64,000 nt of DNA from Ectocarpus siliculosus (lineage: Eukaryota > Sar > Phaeophyceae > Ectocarpales > Ectocarpaceae), in NCBI GenBank assembly GCA_000310025.1, contig FN649736.1:2873247-2937246 (forward strand), in the 5' to 3' direction. The position numbers were made by a program, and so were the translations under genes. Of the stretch, positions 250-63,735 are shown one piece after another. The notes below the pieces were generated by a model. The model was not told the DNA's origin, made no database searches, and saw nothing but the letters and a program-made list of their open reading frames with translations. The stretch's first letter is position 1. Each line of letters starts with the position of its first letter.

Positions 250-5278
<5,029 letters not shown>

Positions 5279-37662: not shown

Positions 37663-38527
37663 TTACGGGTCGGGCGTTCTCTCCACTGCGACTTTTTTCC
37701 TGCTGCCACCGCCACCGGCCGACTTGGCTCTCGCGGCAGCCCCCTGCCGCACGGCCGCCCGTTCCGCCGCTCTCGCTGCCGCTGCCGCCGCGATCGGGTC
37801 CACCACAGGAGCCTCTTTCTTCTCCCCCCCCGTAGTCCGGTCAGTCCCTTCGTCACCTGAATACGAGAACATGCCGTGCGGGACGAGGGTTCGTTGCTTG
37901 GACCAGTTTCTTTTTTCTCGGAAACGTGATGCTGTTTCATTTCATATACCAATGTGATGAAGGAAGCTAGCTCACTCTACGGACTAGACCACTTTGAATG
38001 GGGACGGGCAAATGTGGTTTGGGGCACCAGCAAGGCGGGAAAGACCCTGGTACTGTACATTTTCTATCTATCTAAAAGTCATGGTGGTGGCATGGTGCGA
38101 CCGCGACGGGTGTCTCCCCGGTTGTGATAGATTAATTCATGAATATTCCGCAACGCTCATGAATCACATGGGATTTCCAGCACAAACCTGTCCTAGTCTA
38201 CCGTGAATCGTCGGGAACGGCGGTGCTTTTCGACAGAGGAAAAGACACGATAGGGGCTGAAACATTTCGTATGTGGAGAGCAAAACGTATATCAGGGCAC
38301 GCAAAGTACGGTGGACGCGGTGGATATAACCTGCCATCCTGAACCATCGATCGTACCGTTCCTCGAGCCAAGCGACAACATTTGCTCTGAACGCATTTCA
38401 TAAGTCTACCAAAGGTGAGTATGTTCACCCAGCCAGTCCTAATGTGAAATATTTCGTCTCGTAAGTGTTTCTGTTTTACTCCTTCTCTCTCTCTCTGTCT
38501 CTTTCTCTCTCTGTCTGTGTGTGTGTG

Positions 38528-38612
<85 letters not shown>

Positions 38613-41600
38613 TTTCTCTCTCTCCCTCTCGACAGTAGTGCGCGCGTGTCCACAATCTCGATATCTCGATTTTTCTCCTTCTCATTGCCCTCTTGTCTCA
38701 GCCTCATGGCCCTGTTTCTCTCGCTCTCGCTTACCTTCGGCGTCGTTAGCGTCCCAACCGTTGATCTTGTTCGTCAGGTTCTTGGCTAGCTGCCGGGCTA
38801 CGAGTCCTATCGCCCCCCCTGCCGATTGCCCTGTACCTTCTCCACCAAATGCTCTCGCTCGTAGCGTCTTCACGGCCCCTGCTGCCCGCACGAAGCGTCC
38901 CGTCCTCCTGTTTGTAGGTTGGGCACAAAGAGGGTCGCGGCTTATCCAACAAGATTGGTTCGGAGCCTGAACCAAACAGGATACGTTTGTGAAAGGGACT
39001 ATCGACCGACTTTTCAAGGTATGAACAAACGACGGCATCGTGACGTGCACAATATCCCTGTGGCCGCAGGTCAGAGGAGCGCGGGGCACAGGGAGGAACT
39101 GCGGCGGGGGTGAGGAGAGTGGTCGAAACTGGATGGAAATACATAACTAGGAAATGGCACACACATACAAGTATCGTGAGTGCCTCTGATGCCCACACGT
39201 ATTCCGGGAAGCGACAAGAGAGCAATTTAAAAGCCGAATCTGAACACTTGTCTATATTTCCGCACCGAATTACTAGTATGAATATCGTCGGCAATCAATC
39301 GCCTTTCACGTGTTGTGGCCCTCGTCCTATCACGTTCGTCCCGTAAACGGGTAGTGCATGCCGGCGGTGTGCATCTTTTCGAGGCCTCATTCATATCCAT
39401 CGATGCCAACAGAAACTAGAGATAAAGGTCTTGCCTTCGACTCTCCCTCTCGTCGGCCTCTTTCTTCAGCCGTCGTGCAGCCACCTCCCTCTCGTGGTAG
39501 GCCTCACGGGTCTGCGCCGAGGCCGCGCGCGCTGCCTCTGCCTCCTTATCCTGCCGGCGCAGCTGGCGCTGGTACTTCTTGCGGCGTTCCAGCAGTACCT
39601 GTCGCCTCTCTTGCTGGGCTTTGTGCCTAATAGATGTTGTTGTTGTTCGTGGCGGAGGTGTCAGTGGTCATGTGTCGGGGGAGCGTGTAGAGAAGAAGGG
39701 AAGGTCAACGTTCGTGTGTTGGGTGGTAGACAACGATGGAATAGTTAGGTAAGCAAGAAGAGAACGGTGGAGCCCCCGCGATAGGAAAAGGGCGACGCTC
39801 CGAATGTGTTGCAGCGTATCAGGATGCTCGGAAATGGGTCGGCGATCTACAGAGAGATTTTGCCACTCGAGAACGAGCGGAGTCATTGGTGGCCTGGCCG
39901 TCGTAAGAGCCTTCGCTCAATCCAATACGCGTACGACCAACGACACACCATTCCGTTTTGAAGGTGCACCCTGATCTCTGATTGTTCATTCTGGTCAGCA
40001 TGTCTGTTGAAGGGTCACTCGGCGCGGGGTTTGCACCAAGGAAGGGCCCCGGCCGGAGTTGAAGGAAATTTGCATCATGCCGGTTCGTTGAACGGTGTAT
40101 CCGGGTGTTGGCACGTATACAGCACGAACAACCCCAACATTTATCGTCGGTCGCCCCAGTGTATCCTCGACACCTTCTAGAGGTCAGGTCAGGGGTTCGA
40201 ATCCCAGCGCAAGCGAGCTTTTCTTGCAAAGTGAGTTTTTCTCTCGCTTCCGCTCCTGGCCTAGTGGATAGCGCTAGTTCGTGTGTACACAGAGGGAAGA
40301 GAGTGCTGACTTCTGCTCGCATTAAAAATCGAAGGCAGAGTACCGCAGAATGGGAGGGTAGAGAGGGGCTCTTCTGTGTGACCACGGGTTGGAGTAAACG
40401 GCACTAGTGCTGTGAGCGTTGATTTGAAGTGAAGGCAAAAAAAAAAAAAAACGTCCAGGGTGGCGACACAACGGATGAAAACAGCTCGCCTACGAAGCAA
40501 ACAACGGCGGTAGCCCTCCTTTAAGAACATCGACGCCTGGGATAAAATGCACCGTTCGTCCTTCTCACGCACCTGGTCTGCCGGATCCGAATCCTCGCCG
40601 CCCGCCCGGGGTCGATCACGTCCAACACCTCCAGGTCAGTGTAGCCTCCGCCCATTTCTCCGTCATCAGTGACCTGACGGTTTCGCACCACAGCTTCCCT
40701 ACCAGTTCGGTTGCCATTGTTGAGAAAGAGATCCCAATGTCAATCAACCGCACGTGGGATTCAGAAGACTGACAGCCTTGCCACACCTCGTCGTCGAAGT
40801 TTCTGCGGATCCCGTTGAGAGGTCAGTAGCTCGCGAAAAAGGTTCGAGACTTCAGTTCGTTGTCAGGTGTACGCCGAACCATGACGACATGCATTCAGCT
40901 GAAACAAGGTGACGTCACAGTGTTGGTGTCGAACCAATGCCGAACGGTTGATCTATTGCTAGAGGTTGACCTGCGGAGAAACTTCGACGGGCATCAAGCT
41001 GCAACCGCTCACCCTGTGGTCTGGTGGCATGACGTTTCGAGAGGGGTTTCAACGGATTCCGTAAATTGAGTTGGAATGATCTTGTTAGGAAGGCTTGAGG
41101 GTTGGAAAGCGAAAATCACGAACTCATGGCAGCGCGGAGGAGATTTTTCTGGTGAACCACGGATCGGTCTTTCAGCTACTGGAAGTTTCGAACCGCGAGT
41201 CTCAGCAATCGAACGGAACGTTGGAAGGAAAACAAATCCTGCCTAACGACCAATTTCTTCGCCTCTGTCTTATCCCGGCTGCGGTAACCCAAGGCCGTGA
41301 ATGTGCGTGCGTCATACGCAATATGTTATCAACCGGGCGACAGAACGAATCAACCGGCCGACCAGACCAAGTGCCACAAATCCACGAGAATCTCACCTGC
41401 GCGTGTCGTTAAAGTGGCCGTCCTCTAGCTCCCCCCCCTCCTCGGACTTCTTGAGCTTGTGCGCGGCGAGGGCCTGCTTCCTCTCCTCGTCGTCCTCCGG
41501 GTGCTCTCGCTCCCACCAGAACGGGTCCTCCGGCTCGAAGAGAGTCACACCGACGCCGAGGCACTCCCAGGAGTCGGAGGGGCCGGAGGCGGCCACGCTC

Positions 41601-42330
41601 GCGGCGGGCGACAGGCCTTCGAACAGAGCGACACACCTGGTTGTTTCACTTTCCGGGGAGGGGGGGCAGAGGAGGTAGAGGAAAGGGGGGAATACGAAAA
41701 TGGAGAGCATGGGTGAGACCTGACCCCTAATTCAGCAAACGATGAATTCGTACAATGTCATTTGCTGTGTTTTTCGACTGATGTATCGCAATGCGCGAGC
41801 GATACACGCTGTTGAAACGCTGACGAATAATCCCAGACCCATGCTCCGGAGGTTCTTGAACTCAAGTGCGTAGTGAAACCTACGTAGTCGTAGATCTCGC
41901 GAACCCCATCTATAGACTGATCTCTAAGGCATTGACAAGATGGTTTGAAAGAAAAATCGAATGGATTATTTTATCTCTCCCAGCGACGGAAAAGTTGTCG
42001 ACAAAACAACATGTTTCTTCTGATGCCTGTGCTTACCTGTCTTTCACATTGCTCCCTCCCTCCTGTCCCCGTGATTCGTTGCCGACCTCGTCATCCACCT
42101 CCTTGTTGGCTCCATGTTCGTTTCCTCTGCCGTTCTCGCCGACGCCCGCGTCCTGATCCTCATCGTTGTGGTCGTAGTTGCGCCCGGGACCCTCGGTCGC
42201 GAAGCTGAGGTTGCTGCTGAACAGGGCGAGGAGCATCTCCCACTCCTTTTTTCCTCCCGGCACAAGCAGACCCTTTCCGTTCTCGCTGTTCTCGCTCTCA
42301 CCTTGCCCGTCTGTCCGTCCGTGGCCTTCT

Positions 42331-42362
<32 letters not shown>

Positions 42363-45300
42363 CGCCGCCTCTGCTACCGCTTGAGGCGGGCCTGCGCTGC
42401 TTCGAGCGGTTGGTTTGGGCGTCGTCGTTGACGAAGACGGTGGTGTTGACGGCCTGGCTTTGCTCTCGCTTGCTGGGTGGCTGTGTGTTCTTGAACCCGC
42501 TTCCGCCATTGCCACGGCAGCCTGCGCCAGGGCAAATTGAGGCGCCATCGTATCAGTTGCAATGTTCTTGGTAAGGAACAGCGTCTCACAGCCGGATGGT
42601 CTGGTGGGGCCGGCCACGTACACCCTTTTCGGCTACATCGCCCGAAAGCCGAAGGGGATACTTGGCAGGCGCTTTATGCCGAACGCCCAACCTTTCAGCC
42701 GGTACGTTACACGCAAGCCTGTTCCGCAGTTGTTAAAGCGTGTCGCACCTGGAGAAGCATGCGCCCTTCCGCTGCGTGGACGGATTCTCGCTCCGACTGG
42801 TCCACGAGAAGCACACCGAGGTTGTTCACAGCCGCCGCGGCTCCGGCAGTGCCCTTCCGGCGTCTCTGCCTTATCGCGACCAGGCGTCTCCAGTGCTTCT
42901 CTGCCTCAGCCTTCTCGCTCTCCCGGGTGGCTGCCCGCTGCCTGTTTGTTGATTGTTGATTGTTTTCGTTGTTTTGTGTTCTTAGGGCGTGTGTTTGTGT
43001 CTCTACTGTTTTTCTTCAAACATTTCCGTGTTCCGGTTTGCTCTGTCATTGCGGAACAACCCCGCTTTCCTGCGTGTTTCTCGCCTTCTTTGTTCTATTC
43101 TGTTCGCTTTGCTCGTCTCGACAGACAAGACTTGGCTCACGAGAAGTACGGTGGCGGAAACCGTTCCGTGGGATCTGAAAAGCATGGGGTGGCTGCTACG
43201 GTAAACGCGATAAAACAGAAAAACATGGAGTGAATATTTGAACAGGGCGAGATGTGGTAGCATCGCGTGAGAAGATTATGAAAAAAGGGTTGAAGACGGA
43301 ATGGCGCCCAAAGGAGTTGTCGATAACACTTGTCGAGACGATGAAAACTAAAAGGATTCATAGCAAACATGTCTAACCCAGTCTTCGACGCTCGGCCTAG
43401 TGCTCCCGTACCTGGCGCTGAGCCCTCTTTCGTAGAGGTCCACTTCCTCTTGCATCTTCTCCTCTTCCTTCAGCCGCAGCTTTTCCAGGTGTTTTCTTTC
43501 CCTCTCTTCCTCCTCACGCCTCTGCAGTACGCACCCAGACGTCCAAAGAATCAAGGCAGATAGCAACGTGTGTTTCTTCTCGCTTTGAGAAAGCAGACAT
43601 ATGCTACATATTCAACAGTATAGGTCCTCGTTTCGCTGTTGGGGGCAGCTACTTTTTCAGAATACGCACGCCCGGACGATGCACTGGGATTGTCGACAAA
43701 ACTGCGAGAACGACCGAGACCTCAATGTTGAGGGGGATAGGAACGACAGACGGGTCCTCTCCAGGTGGTGCCCGCCTTCCGGATATCGTTTGTATGAATG
43801 ACACTTCTTGCCCGTACTCCAAAACAAGGGCATACCACCAACTTCTCATGTCGTCGTGGTTGTTCGTCTCAGAGCGCGCGACTCGCCTGGCGGTCCTTGG
43901 CCCGATCGATTTCGTCCAGCGCCACCCTTCGACGAGTCTCGGCTCGCGCCTCGCGGGCCCCTTCTTCGAGACGCCCGGCCATCGGCTCTCCCATGCCCGC
44001 CGGAAGAAGCGAAAATATGGGAAACCCTGTCACCTGAAGCCGCGCTGTAACCTTGATCGGCGGGTCGGAGGTGTGACCGAAGCACCGGAAACGTTTCGCA
44101 GGGGGGTGAGAGAAAGCGGCTACAGGGTGAACTGAAGAGGGAGGAGGATACGAGGAAGAAGTGGCAGGGTGGACCGAACACCCGTCGAGGTCGTAGCGTG
44201 AAAGCTGAGGCTCCTTGAGATTGGATTCGAGGATGAGGCCGCGAGAAATTTCGGGGTGTTCAATATATCTCAGGGGGTCTGACGTCGTGCTTTGTGGTCA
44301 CTGCCTCATAGGGCTACGGACGAGGGGAAAGAAGAACAGGCAAACAATTCACTGGTGTTGTGTGAAGAGCAAATAACACACAGCAGCCATCATTCCCACC
44401 GATGGAGGCACCAAGTTTTCGCAATGGTGCCGGTGATCCCACCTCCCTTCGTCAGAATTTCAACGCCAGATTGCCCCAAACCGAAAGGGTACCATTGCCG
44501 AAACGGACGTTATGGATCTCGAGGACGTCCCTGGGGCCTATCGCGCCTGTTTTCGTACCCTCATGGCTGTGGAGCGTTTGCGCAACGGAAGCCGGTCTAG
44601 GGGGATGCGATTTCTCGCACAACTACGACACCTCTTATGGCCAACCTCAGCTGACATCTGGACGTCAAAAAGTATCTCGCTGACTGTGCCGCCAACCATG
44701 ACGAGTAAGCCTTCTTGTTGACATCGTTACACGACATCGTACCTTTCGGGTACCGAGTCCTAGTGTAGCCACTCCTTCTAGACGGGCGCGAGCGGCGTCG
44801 TAGGCCCTCAGCCCCCTGGCGATTGCCGTAGCAGTGGCAGCCTAATCGGACAAGGGACGGTTCGTTGTACACCAAGTGATGGAAACCCAACCATCCATGT
44901 TTCGATCAGGTTTTGGTTTGGCTCACTACTGTAAAACGTTGTTATTCCTCGTTCGATTAATAACTGGCAATGCTGAGTATCTAAAGATGGCCGGGAGGGG
45001 CGGAAGCTCGGTCACCTCGGGATGCCACGGATGGTTTGGTCGATTTGGAGGACGAGAGGAGACCTCGAGTTGAATCTTGGGGCAAAATGAGATGACTTGT
45101 GAACAGGAGTTTTGGGGAGCTGACTGCTACTTGCCACAAGGTATTGCCGAAGCTGAAAATGCACCTTGGCAGTTCGTGTCCCACATTCCCGTGACAAGAA
45201 AGTCGTTCGTGAAACGAGGGAGTGAACCCTGCCCTGCAGCAGGTAAGTGCACGACGCCGACTACCACACTTCCTGGGACGCTACTTGATGTATCCTTTTT

Positions 45301-48300
45301 CTCCCGAGACAGGAAAAGCACACACTACAGTAAGGCTAGCCTAAACATGCATCGTTTCTCGAAGGCCTTGGCGCACTTTCTTTCCAATGGTGCCCAGACT
45401 CTCACTGGTGGTATCGCCAACAACCGTGTGGTGTTAGTGTTGTGAAAGAAAAACTGCGAGACCTGCGACGGGACCCACCATACCGACGTTTACCTGCAGG
45501 CGCTCGTCTATCCCTCTCGCTTTCTCCTCGACTATCTCGAGCTCCTTCCACATGTCTTCTTCGATCTGAGGGGGGCGAGGTGTAGCAGGAAATTGTGACC
45601 TTTGTATTTCTCGAGAGCAAACCCATGGAATTCACTGACAATGTTGCATCGATCTGCGACAACCGCTGACTGTTTTTGGTCAAGTGCGGGGGAGGGGGAA
45701 CGAACCTTCGACGGGAGGCCAGAGGCGAGCATCGCCTTTAGCGCTTTGGCCTTTTCCAGGGCCGCCTTCATGTCTCCCAAAGCACCCTCTTCCACGAACA
45801 CGTCCTCCAGGTCTGGGACACCTTCTCGTTCGATTTCGTCTTCGTTTCCGTGTGTCTGTTCAGGGGGACGGTGACACATCGTGTGCTTACATCGTCGGTA
45901 TCACTTTCGCGGTTGTCGTTCATGTTGCATGGATATTTTCGTCATGGTAGTTATTGTTGTGGCGTGTAGTAGAATTTTGGTGGGTATTTTGCTCGTGAAG
46001 GCTGCGATATAGGATAACCGCAGGTTACGACATATTCAAGCGCATGTCGCGTATACGTATGAGCGACGGTGCGTGTACAGCACATTCCCAATCATGGAAG
46101 CAAAACGGTTTCGTTTAGAACCTCACCGCACATAGCGGGCAGTTGGAATTAGTGCTACGAAATCCACGTCCAACAAACGTCTGAATCGAAGCTTATTCGC
46201 TTTCAGACGGGTACGCCGTTCAGAACGAACGCCCCGCCCTTTAATCCCAACCCTTCTCGGTGCTAACACACTGTGAGGTTGCTTTGACAGCAGGAAAATG
46301 TTTTTTTTTTATTTCCTCTTGCCATGCTCGGTGTTGGCGGGAAGAACGCTGTGACCGAGTGTCGGGTACGCCTACTGCGATTGCGGTCCATGGATGCCTC
46401 CCCCTTCCCCGCACCTGCACGCTCTCGGTACCCCCTCCTTCTTCGCGTACCCCGTCCATCTGTGCCCGCTCCCGGCCGTCCACGCCCCCCTTCCCTCTCC
46501 CTCTTCCCCCCCTTCCTTCTTCACCTCCCGTCTTGCTGCCGTTTTCTTTGTGGCTTTCTTCCTCGCTGACCCCCAAGTACTGCGCCAGGTCCTTCGCGTT
46601 ATTCCTCTCAGTGGTGTGCAGTCGTCGCGTTGTGCTACCATCAGCACCGCCGCCTGTGCCGCCTCTGCCAACATCTCCGCTGCCGCCGCCACCGTCTCCT
46701 CTCCCGCCGCGACCGCCACCGCCGGTCTTGTTGCTGCCAGAAGGCTCGGAAGAAGGTGCCATGGTCACGTTTCTAAGGCGACCGCCATCCCCACCATCGC
46801 CACCCGCGGTGTCTGCAGTCACAGTCGTTGAAGATTTCGTTCGGGGTGGGGTAGTCAGGCCGATGGACATGGTCTCGGTGTTGCTACCTCTCGGTCCTGC
46901 ACCCCTCCTGTCCTGCTCATGCACTCTTCCTCCGAACGTTGTTGGCGTCGTGCCACGAGGGCGGGCGCGATGTCTGCGTGTGCCTCCTCGGTTGCCGCTC
47001 CTGTTACTGCCGTTTCCACTGCCGTTGTTGTGGTCGCTGTCACTCTCGCTTCCCCCGTCGAAGAGGCCGGCGGCAACGAATGAAGGCATGTCGCCACCAG
47101 GTTCGTACCATCCCGAAGGCGTACTTGCCCACCTCTCCCCAAACGCAGCGGCGGCGGCGTCTCTGAAGCTTGGGATCACCTTCAGGTGGGAAGTGCAGTG
47201 TGCAGTGGTGACACCGAGTTAATTATGTGTAGCGATGACAAGTTTTCGACCACAAGGTGGCGTTCCGTGATGGTGGAAGGCATAACGTATCCTGGGTCAG
47301 GATCGTTTTTTCATCCTAATTGAGTACCACGATTTACCCTGTTGCCCCTGGATTGCCCGAAAATGGCGTGGTGGCAGCTAGTGAAATGAATGAATTGACA
47401 TCAATACGAGTAACGTTCCCGGTCAGGTAGGACCAACTTTGTGTATTCAGTCATCCATCCACTCCATTGGACCACGGCTTTTTGTTGCATACGGAGTATA
47501 ATATCTGACATAATTTCTTCCGAGATAGACTGCAGTAGATGTATCTTTCAGCGCAAAATGGTTTCTCGATTCATCGATATCAACAGCGGCGAAGGGATTT
47601 GTATCCGCCGCACACCAAAGGTGGGCGGGTTATTGGCGCCATACTCACCCCCTCATCCCCATCGGCCAACCACTTTTGTATCTCTTCCACAGCTCTCGAA
47701 GCCCATCCAGGGCTCAACAACCACTCCTTCAGTCGCCTTTATGGCAACGAGCGACCCCAGATAACCACAGAAGTTGGAGAGATGAGCAACCCAAGGGCAG
47801 CGGGTGAGAAGTGGAAGGACCGTCTCAATAGGAGAAGAAGTCGAGATCATATCATTCATTTTCTCATTCTACATAGTTTGAAACTATTGACGACGCGTGG
47901 TTCCTAGAGCCTAGAAACGCCTGAGAAGTTCCACGTACACAAGCATTGCATCGCGCTCACCCCCAACCGTTTGAAGTCGACCAATCAGCGCATGCCTGTC
48001 CAGCTCGTTCACGTACCAACCTGCCTAAGTAACACACCAACACAAATACAGTGCACCCGGAACACCCCAAGACGAACAGCAATGGAAACGTAGCCTCTCC
48101 TTCTCTCACGAGCTACCGAAACAATCAATTACAACAGTTCATTGCCAACATGACCGTATCCCTTTTTGTCTCAGAAAGTAAACGGGGGCGTACTTACACG
48201 TCTCCATCTGCGGGCGCCAGCCAGTCAGCGATGCTTTCCCCAGAGCAATCCAGGTGCGAATCCACTGCAAACCTTAGCAAAAACGACAGGGCCTTTTCAG

Positions 48301-51300: not shown

Positions 51301-54300
51301 AGACAATGTAAAACAAACGCTCACTCCCGTCACTCCCGTCACTCCCGATGGGTGCGGCATGTTATTTGGTGCGCCTTACCTGGCATACGCTCTTGGGTCG
51401 ATTGAGTCGTTCGGCAGCTCTTCCTCTTGAGGGCCGTACAATCTGCAGGGGTTATGGAAGGGGGCCATTGGGCATTGGACCCAGGGTTGATTTTCGCAGG
51501 GGAGTGAGACAGTTGGAAGAAAAATCACAATCTGTTCAGGTCAGCGACTGTGTCCGTTTTCCCATGAACGTTCGTCGGGGATCTCTTTGACACGTCGCAC
51601 ACACATACGGACTGTCCGCGTGCATCAGAAATCAACCGTAAGCCTCTGTTCAAGGATTGGCGACATCATTGCGCCACCTTGAGCATGCAGGATAGATGCA
51701 CACGGAACTTCCGTGAGTTAAAGCTTCGGAGAAGGGCATGAATGACACTGAAAGAACGAAACCTGTCGTGGGGTAAGTTCAGTAAGTGAAGATTGTGAGA
51801 CATGTCATTTACCGCAAAAGAATCAATTCACCTTTCATTCTTGCCTATCCCACGGTGGCTACGTTGACTACAAGGGCTACGCGAAAGCTCCGACAGTGAT
51901 AAGTAATCCAGATTTTAACCAAAATGTATCGCATATGGTCTTGTCAACTGGAGATTCTGAAAACTCGTCGACGAATTGAAACTGTTCTAGGACATGTCCT
52001 ACACCCAACGTCCGAATCGGCGGAATAGTGTGCAGGAAACATAGAAAGTAGCGATCGTTTCAATACGTTGCTACTGAAGCAACAACACCCGTCTCTCCTA
52101 ACGCACGAAGTCCGCACGTACCTCCGTTTGAAGTTTTTCCACGGGTCCATGAAGTCTAGCACCTCTCCCATCGAAGCTGTCATTTCCAGCTTTTCCGACC
52201 GTGCGTAAAACATGTTTCAGCACAGCACCCAGTCACCATTAGCGCTCGCGTCAGCAACAACTAGATGAGGAACAGCAAGATGGTGATGGTTGCTTTCGGG
52301 GTTGTTCAGAGCACGAACAAAAACATATGCGTCGCGGACACAGACAAAACAGTAAATAGGATAGGCAGTATTCAAACCGGGGCATATCCGCCCACATGTA
52401 TGTCTGGAACACGTCCTGAACCATTCTCGATATTTGTCTCAAGTTACTCTATCCACCCCAACTGGTTTAGCAGAATCTTGCTATTCTCCATAGTTCTTCG
52501 AACAGTATCACGTCTTCTTCTTGTCCTTTTGGCACCCTCCCTACCACCCTTCACGCAAATGCTCTCACGAATTCCACATCTGACTTCTGCGTAGCGAACT
52601 GCACCAGGTGTGCGAAGAGCAAGCGTTACCATGATGGAAGCTCCCGCTGGGTAGGGCTATACCTGCACAGTGAGCTTGTACACTAAATCCGCCAACGGGT
52701 GATGGACTGTCGCCGACTGGTCGTCCGAGCCCTGAATCGTTACCATTCAAGGAATGGCATGTCGAAGGGCAAAGGTGGAAAAAGTAGGTAACAGGTGAGA
52801 TTGTTTGAGGCCAAAGGTCGGTCAAAAGGGAGCGCAAAAAAACAAACCACAGGGGTCAAGGAAGAAACAATGCTGGAAACAAAACTGCAACACAAGCACA
52901 AAGAGTAGCATCAATGGTTGAACCACATCTTTGGCTGGAAAAAACGATTTTTCGGTGCCCATGTGCATTCAGAGGTCACTACCGGTTGCGTCCCTTCTCC
53001 CCAGCAACAGCTGGTGTTCGCATCCATCCCGAGCTGTTTCACACCATCCACAAACCTCTGGCGTCACAGGGAGAAGAGGTTCAAGATCTACGACTTTGTT
53101 CGCCGCATGCACTTTTCTTCGCGATTACGTCTGAAATCCACGCAAGTAGACTGTAAGACAAGTACCTCGTTACGTTCCGTCTTGGGGCGGGCAGTCATTT
53201 CAAAGGGGTCCCTTTCCCAGAAAAAGGCCACCCTGAGCACGCGCCGCGCCCCTCGACTCGTCGTCGAAGCGCCTACACCTCCGCGTGGGCTGACATTCGA
53301 CGAAGCTGCCGCCGCCGCGGCCCCTATAGGATGAACGCCCGAAACGTGAGCGAAATGCTAAGTTGGAAAAACGGCCAAAGCTCTTTCACTTTGTGGTTCT
53401 ATCGAAGGCACGGTGATTGCGGACAGTACAGTATCGTTGAGCGATACCTCTCTGTTCCTGCGCTTGTATTCCGTGAATTGGTTTTGCGGTGGGGGTTTGT
53501 GCGTATTCCATGCAAGCATTCTCCCCTCTAACGGACAAATTTGTTCGTTTGTTGAGGAAATTTCCTCGATAACCCATCGGTTTTGCCGCTGATGCTATGG
53601 AGGTGCTGGGTAGAATGGAGGCCGTGAATGAACTCAACACGACAACAGAGGTGGTAGATGGGTTCTCTGGGGTGGACAACGAGCGCTTGGTGTGCGGTGT
53701 GCTCATGACTGGTCATAGCGTCCGTTGAAGTAACGTGCCAGATTGTAACGACTCCGACCGCTCTCGTGACGTATTGCGTACAATCTCCCGTTCGTGCAGT
53801 GAGATATGTAGCTGCCGCGTCGCCCAGCAACACCACTTCGCTGCCGTTGCCAGTATCGTCGTTCTTCGCACGGGCGCTCCGCTCGTCCGTATTAAGGACA
53901 TCGCTCTCTGGCGCGTGGTAAACCACCTACCCGCCGACTAGGGTAAACATTTTCCTCGTCGAACAATGCCCTAGTTCTGTCTACCTGTTGTGGTTGTTGT
54001 CGGCTTGGAGCCACGGCCCACGGGCTGGCGAGGGGATCGAGGAGTTGCGGCCCCGGCCCCAGCAAAGGTTTTCGGGGAGTTGTTGCCGTAGCGGATGCGA
54101 ACGACCGAGACGAGAACATCGGTGAATCCGAGCTCGTTTCGGTAGTCCTTGGTTGTCGTTGCCGTATTTGAATCCGGTAGCGTTGGGGCGGGAGGGGGGC
54201 GACGATTGAGGTGTGGAATAGATATATCGTTGAAAGTTCTCCATACTCAGCGCGCACGGCGCACCCCTGTGAAGAAGCTCGTCCCCTCGTGACAGGCCCG

Positions 54301-57300
54301 ACTTTGTTTGATGTCGCAACGTTCGGGAAAAGGGGACGGAAATGAAGAATAAAGTTGCCTTGCAACAACAGCGCCGATCCACATAACAATATATCGTTTC
54401 TGACCTCACACCGCCTTCGATGAAACGACTTCCCGGCCCACGCAATAATGACGGCTTTGCACACGCGTCTCTAGGTAAACATCACGGAGCCAAAATACAA
54501 CCAGAACGACGCCCCTCCCCTCCCAACATACCTACCCTAGGGATGTTTTGGAAGAAGCCCCTGAACTCCCGCGCCACCCTTTCTGCTGCAGAAGCCTCCG
54601 CCGCCTCTAGCTCTAAGGCCGCATCTCGCTCCGCCGCCAGCGCCGCAAGAAGCGACGTCTGCCCCGACCCTGACCCTGACCCTGACCCACCCCCGGCGGT
54701 TTCGATGCTACCTGGGGGGGACCCCAACGACCTGGGCAAAACAGCGGTGGCAGCCAGGTCCCCGTGTTTGGGTGCACAATGCGTCATCTCTCGTCCGCTC
54801 TGTTCTTCTTGGGGCCAGTCCATAGAAAAATACGTATTATCCCGGATTCCTACGTGCGTCGACCCAGTTCGCTTCATGTTGTTAGACATGGACGTCGTCA
54901 GGGTTTGATCGTCTCGAAACCTGTGGATAGTTGTGCTGTGTCGGGGTTCTTTTGCGTCGACAGTCCACATTTATAGATCATAGATGTGGCCAACATCCCG
55001 TCCCCTCCCCCCCTCAATGGTCTAACGACTACGGCATGCACGACTATGAGTACACCCCCCCTCCCCCCCCCTCTCTCTCTCTTTCTCACACACACAGACA
55101 CAAACACATTTTGACTCCCTCATTCCCCGTGTTTCTCTCTCTCTCACCCTCGGCCATCACCGGGAGACTTCGCGGCTGTACGACGAACGCTTCCCCCTGG
55201 GGTGGCAGCAGCAGATGTTGACCGAGCACTGCGTGGTGTAGCGGACGATGCCTCTCGACCTCGTCCCTGGGCTTCCTCAAGAGGAGACGGCGGAGGGGCG
55301 ACCGCAAGAAAGGGCATATCCAGCCAGGCCACGGCGTGCATCTCTTTCACCTGCTCAGATCGTTTGGTGTGGCCCGAGAGTGCCCGAGCAATGTAGACGA
55401 CATGTCAACAACGTATTCCTGATTTCCCTATCAGCTCTTGTCTTGCTGTCTCGTGTGTGGGCCCAGGCTACGACGGTGAGCGCCCCCATCTTCCGCCGTA
55501 TCCGCCGGTTGGTGGCGAGGTTGGCTCGGCGGCTAAACTATAACCGCTGTACGAATGAAGGGCGCCTTGTTGGACTGCAATCGCTCGCTCGTCCACTCCC
55601 GTCCTCACCTCACCAAGAACGGGAAAAAAAACTTCACACTAGCGCTGCTGCTTGGTTGGTCGTCGCCGTGGATTATCTAGACTTCAACCGTTCGGATCCG
55701 TCCTCGTACCGATCAATTCATGCTACCATCGCATGACACCACGCGCGAGCAACTCAGGTGCGGCCTTAGGTGCGGCGAAATTTGCTGGGGGCGAGCGCAC
55801 ATAGTTGCGCCGAGGAATCATTTACCTCAAGCTTCAGATTCACGCCTGGAATGGCCTCAACGTTGCTACACAAGTTTTAAAGGATCGGGATTGGACGAAC
55901 CTGGGGGGCCTCTCTGGCGGCCTTGCGCCCTTCTTCTGCTTCAGCCGCCTCTCGTTCCTTTTTGGAAACCCCTTCTGCCTGGAAATGGTCCAAAAAAGGA
56001 GTCAACTCAAGCGATCGGGGAGGTTCATTTCGGTTATTTGTACTATGCGGTTGCCTCACAACCAACTAGACATCGGCCATTCAACCTGCTACCCATGACA
56101 TCTACAGTAGGTGCCGGAGGATGGAAACAAAACCACTATCATGGGCTCTACACCTGTGGCCCCGCGGGAGTCTGGACGTACTCGCTCACCTTGGCCCTTT
56201 CCTCTCGCTTCTTTCTGGCCATCCCTTGCTCCTGCCAGAAAACTAACTGCAACTTTTTCTGAAGCGCGGGGGGGGCGGAGGGAATGGCATGCAGACGGAG
56301 TCTTCAGGCGAGGCTGGCGGGTAGGGGTGAATTAGTACAAGTCCAGGCGCAACACGGGATGTTTTCACCATGTGCCTTGTGAGCAACCACGCATTGGGAA
56401 GTGCCATGGTAAAGCTCCTTGGCATTTCCCTCTTTGGCATATGCGGATGTATATTCATCTTCAAATTATGCTGCAGAATAAGGCTCGGGCCTCACACTCG
56501 TGCACACGCCAATGCACGTCGAGACCGAAGAGGCACGATACCAGCTTCTTCGTCTGGGCGGCCCTTGTTTCTCCTTGAGGAAGTTCCATAGGTGTGCTAT
56601 TTGTACCCTCGATGAGAACATGCCGTCGTAAGAGTCTGTTTGTCCACCCACCATCGACCCGTGTGATTGTTGTTTTCACAAGTACTAGCACCTCTCCGAA
56701 GCTGGTACTTGTCCACCCACCACCCACCTGTTCATCTTCGTACGCTTGTAGCAGCTCTCTCGCGGGGGGGTCAAATCTAGTTGACGCAGCTGCCCCGCCA
56801 CCTTCACCCCCAGGACGCGGGGAACGGCCTGGGGAACGTGGAGTCAACCCAGCACCTCTCTCCGCGTCCGCCCTTACGATATCCAGCCTTATCTTCGATC
56901 CCCACGCCGCCGCCGCCGCCGCCGCCGCATTAGTAGTACCAGTAGGGCCACCGCCACCGCTGCCACTCCCTCCACCAGAAGAATGATATGCTGAATTTGT
57001 CTGGCCGTTTGTCGAAAATGGAGAAGAGGACTTGTTAGCATGACTGCCACCACGTCCCCTTCCGTCGTTGTTGGACGATGAGGCCTTCCTCCCCGCGCCC
57101 TTGCTACCACTGCCTCCTGCCCCGCCCGGTCCATCGCCGTCGCCGCTACCACTACCGTTGGAAGGGTCTACAGAATCGGATGCTGTCAACCCGTCATGCT
57201 GAGTCGGACGCGGGATCGTTATCGAGCAGGCGAACCGAGAGAAGCGCGGCTCTGGCGAGAGCTTCGCCCCGTTAGCATGGCGTTTCCCTCTCCCGCTTTG

Positions 57301-60300
57301 TAGATGCCCACCCATCTTCCCACCGATGACGGCCCCCAGAGCTTCAAAGCTGCTTTCCGTGCTCGAGGCCAAGCTTCCACTCTCGTTGTCGCCCGCACTC
57401 ATGTCGGCCGTTCGGGCGTTCTTCTGAAGGGTGTTTCGAGCGAGGATGCTCCTCTTCAGGCGCGCTAGCTCTAGGATGACACCTTCGTTCCACACCTGTA
57501 TCATAGTATGACATGGTTGGTGCCAGGGTGGTGGAAAGGGTGGAAAGCCCGTGGAAAATTGTCTAGCGTGGGCGGGCCTCAGTTTTTGTCTTTCGCAGAC
57601 AAGTCGGGGCTGGTGTCCTTAGATGCCGCCTACGTTGGGGGCGCAAGCCCCTAAGCGTTCTGAAGTGTTCAAGTTCAGCCGCTCGTACATCATCGTCAAA
57701 GTCATGAAATAATGGAAGACTGAACTAAGGCAAACCAACGCCGATGAAGCACGGGGCCCATTCGCAATGCACACCAACAGTACGCCACATCGTAGCAGAG
57801 AAACCTCGTAGGAATTCTTCGAGAGTCGGTGAACAGAGCCCAAAGTAGGGCATGCAGGAGCAAGGGAACATGGCAAACCAGAGCGCCGAGGCAAAAGGTA
57901 GCCATGAAAACAAACTTGGAGGACGTTTTTGTGTCGCTTTGCGTCTTTTTTGGTAACCTTGTGCCAGTGTTTTAAGCGCTCCTTCCACGGAGGCGGGGGG
58001 TTGTGACGCCTGGCTTCCGCTTCCAGCCGCCTCTTTTCCCTCAGACGGCACCAACGAATGAATCCCAGGAGGGTCACCCTGCCCAGCTGGTCCTTCTCGA
58101 GGTCCCCCCCGTCAGCCAAGGCCTCCTCCGCCTCCCTGAGAGAAGACCACGAGAGCATTGCAGGCAACTATGGGAGTAAGTGTAGACGGGGCCATGTGTC
58201 TTGAGCTCGCGAAATCTGGTCTCATGCGCCTGCTTGGAAACAAGAAAGGAGAGAAACTCCGTCCGATCGCGTGGGGGGTTTCAGGCCAATGGAAAATGTC
58301 GATCATACCGTTCCCGAAAGTCGATGGGTATGCTACCGATACGTGTCAAACAAGTGGTCTGTTCTCGCTATTGTGGTTGTTTCGACACCAAGCTCCTGTG
58401 AGGGTAAAGGTCCCCCAGTCTCTAGACTCGGAAACGGGGGTAAAGGAGCAAACGAGTAGAAACCAATGCTCTTTCAGCCACCCAGCCATTCCAATACTCG
58501 CAAGCACACCGAAAATCAATGGCATGAAGCATGTACATGGAGTGGACATTTTACCGACCGAAAAAGGGTGATGGCGTGTTTTTTTACGGTACAGAGGTTT
58601 GCTAAAATTGTTCGGCAGTTTCGGGCGGATGTTCTCTTGGACTTTCAACGACGGGGCTCACGTTAAATTGCAGAGCTATTCCCGGAGGCATTCTCGACAG
58701 TCCACACATGGAAGAAACCATCAAGCAAGGGTTGAAGGACGACGCAAGTGGGGACAAGTTCGAGGTCATGAAGCACCCGTGCTGTTACGTGCCTGTCCGT
58801 AACAAACCCCCCGGCGCCTTCCACCAGGTCTTCCAGAGTATCTACATCCAGGCGGGCCGCGAACGGCGCAGTCCACTGCGTGTCCTTCTCCACCTCCCCT
58901 TCCCCCGGCGAATGCGGGCAAAAGTGTACACCAGGGTAAACACAAGGCTTAGAGCTTTGAGCCCGAGGGACAGCTTGGTTTTGGAGTTGATAAGTGATTG
59001 GGCTAGGTTGCGCTTACAGTTCGCGCTATGTTGGGTCAGTTTCGAGTCCAGCGGAATGGGAGGGTTGGAAAAACAGCACTTTGATCATTTATTAGTGCTA
59101 TCTTCGTTTTTAAGTCTGCCTAAGCTCTAAACACTTCACCTGAAGAAAATGCCACTATTATTCCTCCGTGGTGGCAATCAAAGCTGGTGTATGCCTTCAA
59201 AGGCGGCGAGTTACACCGGAACGAGTTCTACCGAGCCAACGGAGCATCTCCGCATACCTTCATTGCCGTTGGCCGCGGCATGCTCCGCCTTGAGCAGGTC
59301 CCAGTCCCGAACGCTTCGCATCTCCCCTCCGCTAAGTGATGCCCGCCCTTCTCCACCCCTGGCGAGCGCAGCAAGTCGCATGCCTCCTTCCGCACCCCCT
59401 CCTGTTCCCTTGGACTGGCGTTGATTCGCCTTTTCCATTTGAAAACGAATGATGAGAGCATCACTCCGCGGCTTGGGTTGACATGGTTTCCGCGAACGGA
59501 TATTTTGGGTTACTAATCGGTGATGCTTGCGTTATTGCGTTTTGGGGCGGGCGGTGGGAAAGGCAGCTTCTTCGATTTTTGTACTGCACCATGCCTGCGT
59601 TGTTTGCTTTCCTGCATTCTCGGCGTACCTAGCAAACAGATTATGCCTTCGGCTGATCAGATTGCCGGCCACCCAAACGCCAAGCGCCGTCATCACCAAC
59701 AACCAACCGCAACCAATCGCAGCGACAACACCGATCAGAAGTACAACCGTCCGCGCGACAGCAGGCGCACCCTTTTGGAGATGCCCAGCTTGTACGCCCT
59801 CGCAAAGCTCGTGCTATCCGCTGCTCCCGACGTCTTCCACTCTCCTCGCCCGAGGTTAAGCGCGGCTTCGCGGGCGCGTTCGTTGATTCCCCTCTCTCGC
59901 TCCGCCCGCCGGGCGGCCCTCCTTTTGTTCTGCTCCTCAAGCGCCCGCGTATCCTTAGCGGCAGCCATTAATCCCGCAGCTATCGTGCGACATGGAGAAA
60001 GAGACCACAGGAACGAAACAAAGCACAATCAACCTTGTGTTGCTTGAAGACGGTTCCCCAATGGAGCCGTTGAAGGCGGGGGTGTCTTCAGTCTGAACTC
60101 AGGCGGGCAGATCTGCTGCGGGTGGCCATTGTGTGTCTCGTGGCGTACGTGCGAACCAGCACGAGCGCAAGAATAAAAAAGAAATGACCGTTGTGACTTG
60201 TTGTTCTCGTCGTCATCGTTGTTACTGGTGCTGTTTCTGTGACTACATAAGGCGCCCGTTTGGGCCACGTGCAATTCTTACGTCAGTCGATGTTAGAACA

Positions 60301-63300
60301 ACGGACAAATGAGTGTGTGGTCAAGACAAAGACGTTTGATTCGTGGGGCCTCACATTGCGCCCCGCTCGCGGCCCCTATCCCCTTCTTCGCGGCTGCGCG
60401 CACGAGCCTTCCAACCTCCGCCAAAACTTGCATCTGGACCTCCGGTAGCGAGGCGAATCCATCCGACCAACCCAAGGCGGTCGCAGCATGCAGGGATCGA
60501 CTGCTCCCTACTCTTTCGACTCCCGCGTTGGTCCGCGGGGTTGCAAGAGGGCTTGGGGATCCAAGAGGCTTCACCCACGATATTCGGCGACCACCACCAC
60601 CACTACTGTTACTAAGACCATCACGCTGCTGTGACGCAGCAGGTATCGTTGATGTTGGATCTGCTTTGTCGTGATTTTCTTGGCTGCTGTTCGCCATGGT
60701 GAAGGGAGAATCATCGTTCAAGCCGCCTGGACCTCCTGTTGTTCGGGGAGTTCCGCAACACGTCATCGCGCGGTGAGGAATAGTTGGTCTCGCCGAAACT
60801 TCAAGAATTTTCCCTGGGTGGGGAAATCCTTCCACTGTAGAATCTAACAACACCTCACTTCCTTTGGACACAAACAACGTCACACAATGAGCGAATACAA
60901 ACGCTCGTAAAACTCCTGAAACACGCCACAATGTTCTTGACGTGCAGATGCCGCGAAGTGGTGAACATTACCCTACTGGTATGGTTCAATCTGCTTCGCG
61001 TGGTTGCTTGTGTCTGGTGTCAAAAATGGAGAATGAGAAAGCGCGGCAGGGCGATTCTTGTTTGTCCCTCGGGAGTTATTTTCTAACTCGTGCCCGTTTG
61101 TTGCCACAACTCGCATGAGTGCCATCTACTTTGATTTGACTTTGCAGAGATGAAGCTTGAAACCACTTGGCCCTGACCGTCACCAGTGTTTTCAGACAGA
61201 GCAATGAGTTGGGCCCCACACAAAGCATGGGAGACAGACAAGCTTCCTCTCAAGTTTATTAATCTCCAAAAGACAATGCTATCTCAGCCCGCCCTCTTTT
61301 GCATCAACTTCGTCTTCCACAACACTTCACGTCGCCAACGTCAAGCGAAGTGGGAATCATGTGCTGATTTTGCCACCTCTCGATATCTTGCACGCCAATT
61401 GCAGCAATGACGTAAATAGCAGTTCACAACATGTTTTCTGCATCTCGGTGTACGAGAGCGCATAATTTGTCAGCACATCAAACGTTGCTGAGCGATTCGA
61501 AGAGTACGCCTTGAACACAAGCCACCTTACCTGCTGAGTTCCCGTCACCGCCTGGCGCCCGTTTTTCGAGCAGTGCGCGGATGGCGGCGGGCTCCAGAAT
61601 CCTCCCGACCCCCCACTTCTCTGCAAGCGTACGCACCCTCGCTCGGGTAACCACCAGCCTACGTGCATCACCGCCTCTCTCTGTGGCGTACGCCCTGACT
61701 TCACTTGCGGCATACTTCACGAACGCCACCCCGGGGCAGGACAGAAACGACCGTAAGGGTTGTGGCGCTAGATGGGAAAGGGACAACTAGGGACAAATAC
61801 AGCGAGACCCTCTCCGTCTGGGGCGTCCACCGTAAGCGGGTTCTGACGAATCTCAGACAGGGACGAAGGAGGGGAACACTCGCGTTGCTACCGATGGGAT
61901 GCAGGGATAGGGCATGTACTGCGGTTTGTCGCAATAGCGCGAGAAATGGCTCAAGAACGTTAACGGCAGGGCAAGTCGCAAAACAATCATACCTCCGCCC
62001 GCCTGTCGTAGTCGTCAAGAGCACTGTCCACCTCAGAAAGTTCGCGAAGGAGCTCGTGCTCGTGACGGTAGAGCTGCACAGTAGATTTCGGGCAGATTGA
62101 AACAAGACGAGGCAGGAGGCTTCGAGTGCTGGAATGAGACACCGACTGAAACGCATATCCCCGTCGTCGCAAGAGCGAATGTTTCAAACATCATGGCTTA
62201 GCAAATAGAAGTTGAGGGAAAACACTTATCGAAGTAGGTCGGATTTTACTTTGCGTTGAACCAATTGACGGTAAGCAACACTCGTCCAGGTACTAGTATT
62301 TCAAAGCCCAAGCGACTTGGCCCCTAGTTAAGTGTTAGCTATATTCCTGGGTACAGGATTCAAGCTGACAAGAAACCATCCGATTATCTCTCCATAACAA
62401 ATCACACAAGGAGAAATGGGAATCTGCGATTGGGTGAGCTACGAGCACTATTGTATCCGGAAAAAAAAAACAAAGAGGATCCTTTCGTGTTGCTTGCCCA
62501 CCAGAACGAGGTCCGCGGAGCCCGTGGCCCCCACGCCCTTCAAGAAGTTCCGGCATCGCGAGTTTGCGCAGCAGAAACTTGATACCGCTGCTGCCGAAAT
62601 GCTCGCGCTAACCAGGACAGCACCGGTGCTCTTTGAGGTCGGACCAGTACCACCGCTGCCGACGGAGCCGGTGGGGGCGGTCTTGGCGACGCAAGTGGCC
62701 GTCGACGTTGCAGAGGCGGTTTCCTCGCCCGCGGTCTTCTGCCCCCCGTCAGCTGCCGTGCGAGTGGCCAACGCTTCTGCCACGGCCGCCTGGTCGGAGG
62801 TTTTTGGCCGGGTGACGAGCGCGTGGGGGTGTGTGGGGTGCGAGTGGATCCTCCTCTGATGGGAAGAGCGTGTCAGGGAATGTCGATTCATGGTAATCTT
62901 TGGGCAGGGGATGTTTTCCGAGACTCCCTGAGCAATGGTACAATCTGCAGCACGGTTGCCTGTATGGCCAGGTGATAGGGGACATGTGTCGCGTATTTTT
63001 CTGTTTCAGGTGGGAAAATCGATGCGGGCAAAATATATCCCTGAGGTCAATGACCCGAGATCCTGTTCTGTGCGACTGACTCGGGCCTTCGCTGTTGAGG
63101 GACAACACCAAAATGTACAATTTTGTAGCGCGTTCTGCGTGTTTCAAGCTCTCTTCCGACTCCTGAGCGGTTGGTGACTCCCCGAAGGTAAAAACCTTCG
63201 GTGAAGGCTATAATTCAAATATGTATGATAGCTCGACATTTCTCCCTTGCAGAGTAAAACCAAAAGGGTACCAATGGCTTGCGGTTAGAGGACGTGGAAT

Positions 63301-63735
63301 TTCCGTCTGCTTTCGTGGCAAGTTGAAGCCTTGGGGTTACCACCCCACTCAGCTCAATACACAAAAAAATGTTCAGTTGGGAGAGGGCCTCGCAAAACGA
63401 ATTACCTGCTGAAAGCATAGACGGGATTGTGTGGTTGTGTGTTTCTTCAAACGAGAGGGATTCACGCACATGTAGAGCGTTATCTCCAAACGTCAAGGTA
63501 TTCAAAAGGAAAATGAACGCGAAACCCCATGCCTCCCTGCAGTCTAGACAACGTACGAGCGCAAGGACGCTGCAGCGCCTTCAAGGGTATGATCGGCACC
63601 TGATGGAGGAATGCTTCTTGGGCTAGGGAATGAATTTTGCCATCTGGCGGGGGCTCCACTCTGTGCAGTCGACAAAACCCCGTGGCGCACGCACTCATGG
63701 CCATCCGGAGCTCGGTCTCGTTGACCATCCCATCT
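37663..63735 (-). CDS. Very large EF-hand and coiled-coil protein (at least 33 exons; 5' end unresolved)
   Basis: I do not recognise the family. In transcription order, exons are 63735-63600, an uncertain one near 62.5 kb, 62073-61993, 61714-61531, 60735-60355, 59979-59771, 59429-59258, 58898-58793, 58135-57916, 57495-56728, 56258-56190, 55978-55901, 55350-55148, 54731-54532, 53323-53166, 52189-52122, 51442-51380, 50944-50704, 49781-49668, 49069-48965, 48418-48198, 47736-47649, 47179-46415, 45855-45706, 45565-45494, 43985-43887, 43521-43412, 42941-42749, 42521-42037, 41636-41397, 40698-40573, 39626-39435, 38907-38735 and 37856-37663. From 62073 down, lengths sum to 6,528 nt: 2,175 aa plus stop, each junction in phase. 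Features are a canonical EF-hand across the 50704/49781 junction, weaker EF-hand-like segments, Arg/Glu-rich coiled coils, low-complexity Gly/Ser/Thr inserts and an Ala/Arg/Lys-rich tail. No signal peptide or membrane segment was seen. A calcium-responsive scaffold is inference. The donors after 58793 and 57916 and the acceptor at 59429 (or 59414) are ambiguous; ATG at 60697 (CACCATGG) is an alternative start. Confidence 0.72.
38482..38607 (+). repeat. (CT)n microsatellite in the last intron of the EF-hand gene
   Basis: About 125 bases of almost pure CT dinucleotides, with a short TGTGTG interruption at 38515-38528, lie between exons 38907-38735 and 37856-37663. On the minus strand this is a GA run, which gives spurious Arg/Glu ORFs. 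Confidence 0.9.
39435..39626 (-). CDS. Coiled-coil exon of the EF-hand gene ending at a GC donor
   Basis: The exon opens after CTATTAG, reads HKAQQERRQVLLERRKKYQR and continues as a Glu/Arg/Ala heptad region to DERESR. The only donor giving the phase needed by the next exon (38907) is CGAAG|GCAAGA, a GC donor close to the AG|GCAAGT consensus. GT donors nearby give the wrong phase or a stop at the junction. Confidence 0.65.
40190..40280 (+). other. tRNA-like B-box and A-box motifs in reversed order (weak)
   Basis: GGGGTTCGAATCCC at about 40192-40205 resembles a tRNA T-loop/B box, and TGGCCTAGTGGATAGCGC at about 40257-40274 resembles an A box, but the B box precedes the A box. The stems around the T-loop do not pair beyond three bases, so I do not call a tRNA gene. 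A tRNA-derived SINE fragment or a chance match are alternatives. Confidence 0.2.
43887..43985 (-). CDS. Coiled-coil exon of the EF-hand gene ending at a GC donor
   Basis: This 33-codon exon starts PMAGRLEEGAREARAE and ends IDRAKDRQ at CCAG|GCGAGT. The next exon (43521, RREEEERERKHLEK) begins in phase 0, as required. There is no GT donor in the right phase before the frame stops. Confidence 0.65.
49668..50944 (-). CDS. Two exons encoding the canonical EF-hand of the large minus-strand gene
   Basis: The exon 50944-50704 ends in MLFRAADK and the exon 49781-49668 starts in DLDGGLSYSEMVGML. Joined in phase 0 they give the loop DKDLDGGLSYSE, with Asp at positions 1, 3 and 5, Gly at 6, Leu at 8 and Glu at 12, flanked by suitable helices. 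This fits a calcium-binding site without substitutions. The next exon (49069-48965) carries a weaker EF-like segment, KTDRQGYVTEDG, which lacks the acidic first and last ligands. Confidence 0.85.
62502..62816 (-). CDS. Ambiguous coding segment (either strand) between EF-hand gene exons
   Basis: The minus strand is open with Ala/Thr/Ser-rich sequence ending GSADLVL before a GTGGGC donor in phase 0, which would join the 62073 exon. The plus strand of the same bases is also open with strong GC third-position bias: it follows a CCACCAG acceptor at 62504, starts near TPFKKFRHREFAQQKLD and ends before GTGACG. I favour a minus-strand exon because both flanking exons are minus, but cannot decide from sequence alone. 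Confidence 0.25.
63600..63735 (-). CDS. EF-hand exon nearest the right edge of the window
   Basis: This exon has one leading base plus 45 codons, preceded by a CGGCAG acceptor and ending CATCAG before a GTGCCG donor (phase 0). It begins DGMVNETELRMAM, which is the second half of an EF-hand loop (Asp-Gly, hydrophobic at position 8, Glu at 12); the first half must lie in an exon further upstream, probably past the window edge. A second, weaker EF-like loop follows at PPPDGKIHSLAQEAF. It is placed with the large EF-hand gene by strand and content. The phase link to the next certain exon (62073) depends on an unresolved exon. Confidence 0.55.

Follow-up and report, generated by a model that had tools for sequence, protein, structure and literature searches.

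An intron-rich, mis-bounded gene model of Ectocarpus siliculosus headed by a predicted calcineurin-B/NCS-type EF-hand module

The described proteins closest to the one considered here are calcium sensors of the calcineurin-B/NCS superfamily, whose myristoylated NCS-type members start with the motif MGxxxS/T, and the EF-hand/coiled-coil scaffold proteins represented by trypanosome BILBO1 and animal ninein. For animals, PMC11984960 describes a myristoylated NCS protein that works together with a distal-appendage protein at the mother centriole. The locus described here lies on the minus strand of contig C11 (FN649736.1) of the brown alga Ectocarpus siliculosus (genome 189 Mb in 492 contigs), within an analysed window of 64,000 nt (C11:2873247-2937246), where an initial annotation had placed one 26 kb gene running from 63735 to 37663. 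We find this to be a real but mis-bounded gene model: the region holds an intron-rich gene, or two neighbouring genes, for a large, predicted calcium-binding, partly helical protein. Judged by its sequence, the N-terminus, taken together with two exons beyond the window edge, is a calcineurin-B/NCS-type EF-hand module. Coordinates marked ext carry the window numbering on into C11, the overlap having been checked and the sequence extended to C11:2963000.

The 5′ boundary first proposed, 63735, is the base following a weak splice acceptor (cggcag/A, score -1.0) and falls within the EF-hand loop DADRDGMVNETE. The first half of this loop, ...KVKFILGMYDAD, closes the exon whose donor, at ext 64375, is good (5.0) and has the matching phase; on joining, ...FILGMYDAD-R from outside the window meets DGMVNETEL of the 63735 exon to give the loop DADRDGMVNETE. 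The upstream exon is read here as ext 64556-64375 (minus strand) and was independently picked as 64643-64375. Exon 63735-63600, on the same strand and entered in phase 2, completes the canonical loop of EF-hand 3 and continues into GFCRLHRVEPPPDGKIHSLAQEAFLHQ of the NCS-like module, and it was kept because of this loop and of the CBL4 alignment, which reaches into it. Because 63735 sits inside an EF loop begun in an exon outside the window, the region 63735-37663 is not the whole gene. The next exon up reads MGAQYSTGTLSADWKGWLEERCSLEHVRRIYNEFRALVSSRRDDDGFFINHRDFLK, with an ATG at ext 65097 (C11:2938343), 1,097 bases beyond the window edge. The true start is likely to be this MGAQYST... sequence, a putative myristoylation-type N-terminus lying eight codons after an in-frame stop; acceptors at 65121 (3.4) and 65108 (1.7) would allow an internal exon.

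The three joined 5′ exons match CBL4 in phmmer searches (E 4.7e-5), and with the MGAQYST extension the match improves to E 1.8e-6 over residues 23-130, across both junctions. EF1-EF3 align consecutively with those of CBL4, the loops of EF1 and EF2 being degenerate and that of EF3 canonical. On joined exons PF00036 scores 25.4 bits, equal to the curated cut-off of 25.4, and 24.5 bits with a longer query; loops were classed as canonical by eye.

Coding on the minus strand along 63735-37663, as originally annotated, is real, its score lying far above that of the plus strand and of the controls. The coding model was trained on 6,589 codons from the same genome, taken from 40 pieces matching kinases (36) or ABC transporters (4) and from four open frames of greater length, of which three had EF-hand hits and one looked ankyrin-like. 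From a first training set of seven, three frames were left out, two of them retroelement-like (L021) and the third from L007. G+C at the third codon position is 0.743. Exons in the region 37600-65100 were picked by acceptor, coding and donor score, with hand-set splice matrices and without a phase rule. The minus strand yielded 40 exons scoring at least 10 (6,009 nt), 34 at least 12 and 27 at least 15; the plus strand yielded 26 (3,008 nt), 12 and 5, respectively, and each of 20 order-1 Markov controls, which preserve dinucleotide composition on average only, gave 6-16 exons scoring at least 10 and 0-2 at least 15. Some plus-strand candidates overlap strong minus-strand exons, and for some of the minus-strand picks the frame is probably wrong. 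At the 3′ end the frame closes with TAA at 37663, where the initial annotation had put the stop. The curated exons have a median of 168 nt and the introns of 483 nt, near the values for Ectocarpus in an excerpt of PMC6337836 (medians of 137 nt for coding segments, 531 nt for introns, 4,772 nt for genes and 2,529 nt for intergenic space, with seven introns per gene on average), and we count this in favour of the single-gene reading.

A second canonical EF-hand loop, DKDLDGGLSYSE, lies inside the window and bears out the expectation of at least one perfect EF-hand. It too is split by an intron, in phase 0 on both sides, with FRAADK in the exon ending at 50704 and DLDGGLSYSEM in that starting at 49781. 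Both canonical loops are completed solely by splicing, a further point in favour. The joined EF-pair exons match the Pfam families EF-hand_6 (E 9.6e-5) and EF-hand_7 (E 1.4e-3), both under curated cut-offs; the EF-hand_7 alignment spans both hands of the 50944-48965 pair, the partner hand being degenerate, and PF13405 scores 22.3 against a cut-off of 25. In the PDB the pair finds weak EF-hand proteins only, mostly calmodulins (best E 0.0093). PDB searches with the other body pieces gave one insignificant match (E 0.59) and otherwise none, and Pfam searches with the joined body exons that were tested gave EF-hands and no other credible family; an SLT_3 match (E 1.2) was set aside as chance. The view that the protein belongs to no family can therefore be retained for the body pieces, beyond EF-hand/calmodulin matches in Pfam and PDB, and has to be given up for the N-terminus, with its CBL4-like module. 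Charged (R/K, E/D) and Gly/Ser/Thr-rich exons alternate in the composition of 12 exons, and AlphaFold2 (AF2), run without an alignment on the 58134-57916 piece, returned two long helices (mean per-residue confidence, pLDDT, 77; predicted template-modelling score, pTM, 0.38). The charged, probably helical exons and the Gly/Ser/Thr-rich inserts reported earlier are thus present. None of three body pieces searched against the genome recurs there significantly, one finding nothing else at E 0.1 and the others having next best matches at 0.29 and 0.066. A hit at C6:2793794 (E 0.29) was rejected by eye, its frame looking unrelated.

Modules resembling the N-terminal one occur elsewhere in the genome. 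EML proteins are microtubule-binding, and at C3:2873555-2879276 (L038) an EF-hand module is followed by EML beta-propeller exons (Beta-prop_EML, E 2.7e-34; PDB EML1, 2.7e-21). The C3 peptide finds modules on C138 (E 6.9e-7) and C14 (E 9.8e-6), and the C14 peptide, whose module seems by eye to begin MGQRHGK, finds C138 and C3. These three share YDxxxxxxLxxxE...G(L/M)CKL at and after EF3, where the window gene has YDADRDGMVNETE...GFCRL. Against the PDB, the C3 peptide matches NCS-1 (E 2.7e-4), ranked after four designed PPR repeat proteins that were dismissed as chance, being sums of many tiny matches. A profile of the window module and its three relatives, in which the relatives outnumber it, matches a calmodulin/calcineurin-B fusion best (5.3e-14) and NCS-1 at 5.5e-12. 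Two scans of the viral contigs returned 0 relatives.

The exon number and length first given (32 exons, 6,528 nt, exactly 2,175 codons) were not recovered: when chains were made to begin at the ATG at 63728, a splice search over 24 penalty settings produced chains of 29-63 exons and 1,834-2,151 codons, and no setting gave 6,528 nt. Joining in phase at every junction, offered as proof of the model, is no evidence, because a chain selected for phase always has phase; a phase-constrained chain was rejected as evidence, since the plus strand likewise yields a 'gene' of 42 exons (ext 58708-85180). That phase-consistent chains can be had on either strand is also what would favour a chance assembly of open frames with no gene at all, a view that we find scarcely credible in the face of the exon score excess over controls and of two EF loops and a calcium-sensor domain rebuilt across introns. 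Among the independently picked exons, phases agree at 21 of 39 minus-strand junctions, where permutation gives a mean of 14.36 (P 0.018), and at 4 of 25 plus-strand ones, and this modest excess on the minus strand favours joint transcription. A hand-curated chain comprises 35 exons and 6,943 nt, its exons separated by less than 1 kb with one exception; exon 43987-43887 of this chain is entered in a frame differing from the by-eye reading.

We tentatively favour, at a little under an even balance, a single large minus-strand gene running from the ATG at ext 65097 (C11:2938343) to 37663 and encoding a calcium-sensing scaffold, and a number of findings weigh against it. At the head, neither the independent picking, with its 40 exons, nor the gene finder chose exon 63735-63600; no EF-hand 4 was found by eye in frames 63610-61980, Pfam scans of the three minus frames (which also missed split EF-hands) showed none either, and the closing motif of the in-genome relatives was not found by eye in the window gene. 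The likeness to those relatives is weak, with an identity of 22-27 % and a match to C3:2874485 (E 0.0036) in one direction only, the window gene, whose EF3 is intron-split, not being returned at E ≤ 1 by back-searches with the C3 and C14 peptides. In profile searches of the kind that the initial annotation had suggested, the joined exons match EF-hand families, with scores under the curated cut-offs save one equal to its cut-off, and none of the 41 matches listed in a genome-wide PF13499 search lies inside the window. At E 0.05, Pfam scans of 36502-64000 (the three minus frames), L009:4000-10000 (three frames) and L010:5000-10000 (one frame) gave no match, a silence that is weak evidence since three-frame scans missed even the EF-hands completed by splicing. 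The putative coiled coil is a judgement made by eye, from composition and from one AF2 piece. Along the chain, the P of 0.018 for phase matching is modest, 6 of the 34 junctions of the curated chain are out of phase, and the 2.3-3.1 kb between 54.5 kb and 52.2 or 51.4 kb hold one candidate exon scoring at least 10 and would suit intergenic space as well as an intron. Forced models, finally, score 441.8 for one gene and 453.7 for the best two-gene sum before a start penalty, with a tie at 10-14 per start.

Those last figures bear on a division into two same-strand neighbours, which is a real possibility: gene 1, with the sensor module and a helical body, would run from ext 65097 to about 54482, while gene 2, with the EF pair, linkers and a helical body, would start at about 52213 and end at 37663, and the 26 kb model would have fused the tail of gene 1 to all of gene 2. 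The total score equals that of one gene within uncertainty, an in-frame stop is on hand at about 54482, and a plausible first exon, in phase with exon 51442, could begin at the ATG at 52213 or 52171. The gap 54482-52213 has a length near the Ectocarpus intergenic median in the PMC6337836 excerpt; by the figures of the same excerpt, however, 99.6 % of the introns of Ectocarpus are within 5,000 nt, which leaves room for an intron this long, and 3′ untranslated regions average 845 bp, so little space would remain for an intergenic stretch. The gap also contains its weak candidate exon, and the finder's best gene 1 ends and gene 2 start fall elsewhere. Taking these points together we lean slightly towards one gene rather than two. 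With gene penalties of -6, -10, -14 and -20 the gene finder made 10, 3, 1 and 1 genes in 66000-37663, and so the warning that a simple finder would fragment the region was well founded. The 3 or 10 genes made at low penalties are in keeping with more than two genes, or with a separate gene from 60697, an alternative that the initial annotation itself names, which would leave the 5′ module as a short stand-alone calcium sensor. NCS/calcineurin-B proteins usually have about 170-200 residues, and the ATG at 60697 stands in an ideal context (CACCATGG), but the frame is open upstream to 60967, the curated exons on either side are merely 0.8-1.1 kb apart, and between 63610 and 61980 the eye met no EF-hand 4 with a stop behind it; we consider this arrangement improbable.

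Downstream of the module, the exons are given here from 5′ to 3′ on the minus strand, with the scores of independent picks. A probable Ala/Thr/Gly-rich linker exon at 62502-62855 (21.0; alternative frame from 62607, EHFGSSGIKFLLRKLAMPELLEG) is followed by LYRHEHELLRELSEVDSALDDYDRRAE at 61993-62073 (16.5) and by ...VKYAASEVRAYATERGGDARRLVVTRARVRTLAEKWGVGRILEPAAIRALLEKRAPGGDGNSA at 61531-61786, where the acceptor may be 61786 or 61767 (17.3 for the latter). The exon at 60355-60735, which contains the ATG at 60697, is uncertain: its coding score as a whole is negative, and only 60433-60355 was picked independently (12.4). Next come an R/E/A-rich exon at 59771-59979 (20.1), one at 59258-59429 (19.8) and one at 57916-58135, with a degenerate EF-like stretch by eye (EKDQLGRVTLLGFIRW) and charged helices (21.9 for a short form to 58078). 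Gly/Ser/Ala-rich low-complexity sequence at 56728-57495, ending ARELLQAYEDEQ, may contain introns and was picked as three exons, the last in another frame. Two short charged exons lie within 55901-56231 (56231-56190, 17.2; 55978-55901, 16.3), and a Gly/Ser-rich exon continuing into AAERDAALELEAAEASAAERVAREF occupies 54532-54711 (24.2 as 54731-54532); without the donor at 54532, the stop at about 54482 would be reached. The exon-poor stretch 52213-54482, either long intron(s) or intergenic, holds the single candidate 53926-53782 (11.5). At 52122-52213 the sequence MFYARSEKLEMTASMGEVLDFMDPWKNFKR would form the first exon of a second gene or an internal exon; its phase suits exon 51442, and it was not picked independently.

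The second half of the chain begins with an exon at 51380-51442 that has strong splice sites (5.8, 7.6; score 14.3). The EF pair is encoded by 50704-50944 (27.6), with a helical-looking stretch before the first half of the canonical hand, 49668-49781 (24.7), with its second half, and 48965-49069 (15.6), with the degenerate partner (KTDRQGYVTEDG, by eye). After an exon at 48198-48418 (16.3) there is a long Gly/Ser/Thr-rich linker at 46415-47179, in one or more exons (47179-47008, 11.8; 46812-46415, 34.0), then two acidic exons within 45479-45855 (45855-45706, 20.3; 45565-45479, 18.7) and a weak one at 44743-44841 (11.2). A possible GC-type splice donor, CGCCAG/gcgagt, closes a charged exon at 43887. 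The highly charged exon RREEEERERKHLEKLRLKEEEKMQEEVDLYERGLSA at 43412-43521 was picked with a longer 5′ end (43582-43412, 18.8), and that at 42749-42941, ...AVNNLGVLLVDQSERESVHAAEGRMLLQ (21.1), is TPR-like to the eye and gave no Pfam TPR match. Low-complexity sequence with WEMLLALFSSNLSFATEG occupies 42037-42521 (42370-42037 in the same frame, 46.0; 42521-42378 in another, 12.0), and ...DSWECLGVGVTLFEPEDPFWWEREHPEDDEERKQALAAHKLKK... lies at 41397-41616 (37.0), the piece whose next best genomic match is at E 0.066. The remaining exons are 40573-40673 (18.2), 39485-39626 (R/Q/E-rich; 15.0, picked as 39613-39485), 38735-38907 (16.3) and the terminal exon 37663-37856, with its TAA (21.4 as 37856-37667). 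A long AG/CT-type microsatellite at about 38442-38697, reading ERERERER on the minus strand, lies in a presumed intron. Two of the 40 minus-strand picks fall outside the window, and six single ones were left off this list (58898-58789, 55865-55826, 55196-55148, 53926-53782, 48020-47961 and 41923-41884).

The window has a G+C content of 0.495-0.606 in 2-kb steps, and a tRNA search of its 64 kb found none. On the plus strand, translations at about 403-4000 and roughly 28-33 kb resemble by eye N-acetyl-gamma-glutamyl-phosphate reductase (ArgC) and a purple acid phosphatase (GDLG, GNHE and GHVHAFER motifs), respectively. Upstream of the gene, at ext 72735-74038 on the minus strand of C11, there is a 1.3-kb Gly/Ser-rich open frame (coding score 124 in an earlier model) that is probably a separate gene. 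A self-trained gene finder was dropped after yielding a 545-exon minus-strand 'gene' and then a 117-exon plus-strand 'gene'.

If the single scaffold gene is accepted, a probably N-myristoylated calcineurin-B/NCS-type module with one canonical loop would head the protein, followed by charged, probably helical or coiled-coil stretches linked by Gly/Ser/Thr-rich segments, with the second EF-hand pair, again with one canonical loop, in mid-protein. Calcium binding might then reshape the lipid-bearing head and the EF-hands and so alter which partners the long helical body tethers to one another. These suggestions are drawn from the module, from its relative with the EML propeller and from the apparently helical body; the most likely site of action would be the cytoskeleton or a flagellar/basal-body membrane, proposed on the ground that the same genome has an EML-type protein with a similar module at its head. 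In its fullest form, which we rate as unlikely, the idea is that a single polypeptide of at least about 2,300 residues joins a myristoylated NCS-type sensor to a giant helical scaffold that also bears the second EF pair. Were it true, this polypeptide would be a calcium-myristoyl switch built into a cytoskeletal tether, in a lineage with a similar module on an EML microtubule protein; it would add a calcium-sensor type to those that algae use, and similar EF-hand modules would be attached to two or more types of body, an EML propeller and a helical scaffold. The locus also illustrates how a long gene with many exons, lying at the edge of a window or contig, comes to be mis-started and possibly over-joined, and why agreement of phase along a joined chain cannot count as evidence. 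A literature search met no such protein, which does not show that none has been described.

Compared with CBL4/SOS3, calcineurin B, NCS-1, KChIP and the EF-hand domain of NADPH oxidase 5, the window module is alike in its EF1-EF3 alignment, seen with CBL4, its canonical EF3 loop and, if the predicted start is right, an MGxxxS/T N-terminus. It differs from the calcineurin-B/NCS superfamily in seeming to be set on a long body rather than standing alone, in its degenerate EF1 and EF2 loops, in that EF4 was not found, and in adding a GFCRL..PP segment after EF3, as the in-genome modules do. With the EF-hand and EML (HELP-WD40) protein at C3:2873.5-2879.3 kb it has in common the EF module and G(L/M/F)C(K/R)L after EF3; that relative, however, bears an EML beta-propeller, whereas three minus frames of the window gene gave no WD40/HELP match, a search of limited sensitivity since intron-split domains can escape it. 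To BILBO1 and ninein it is likened by architecture, for these proteins, like the one predicted here, join EF-hands to long charged helical segments.

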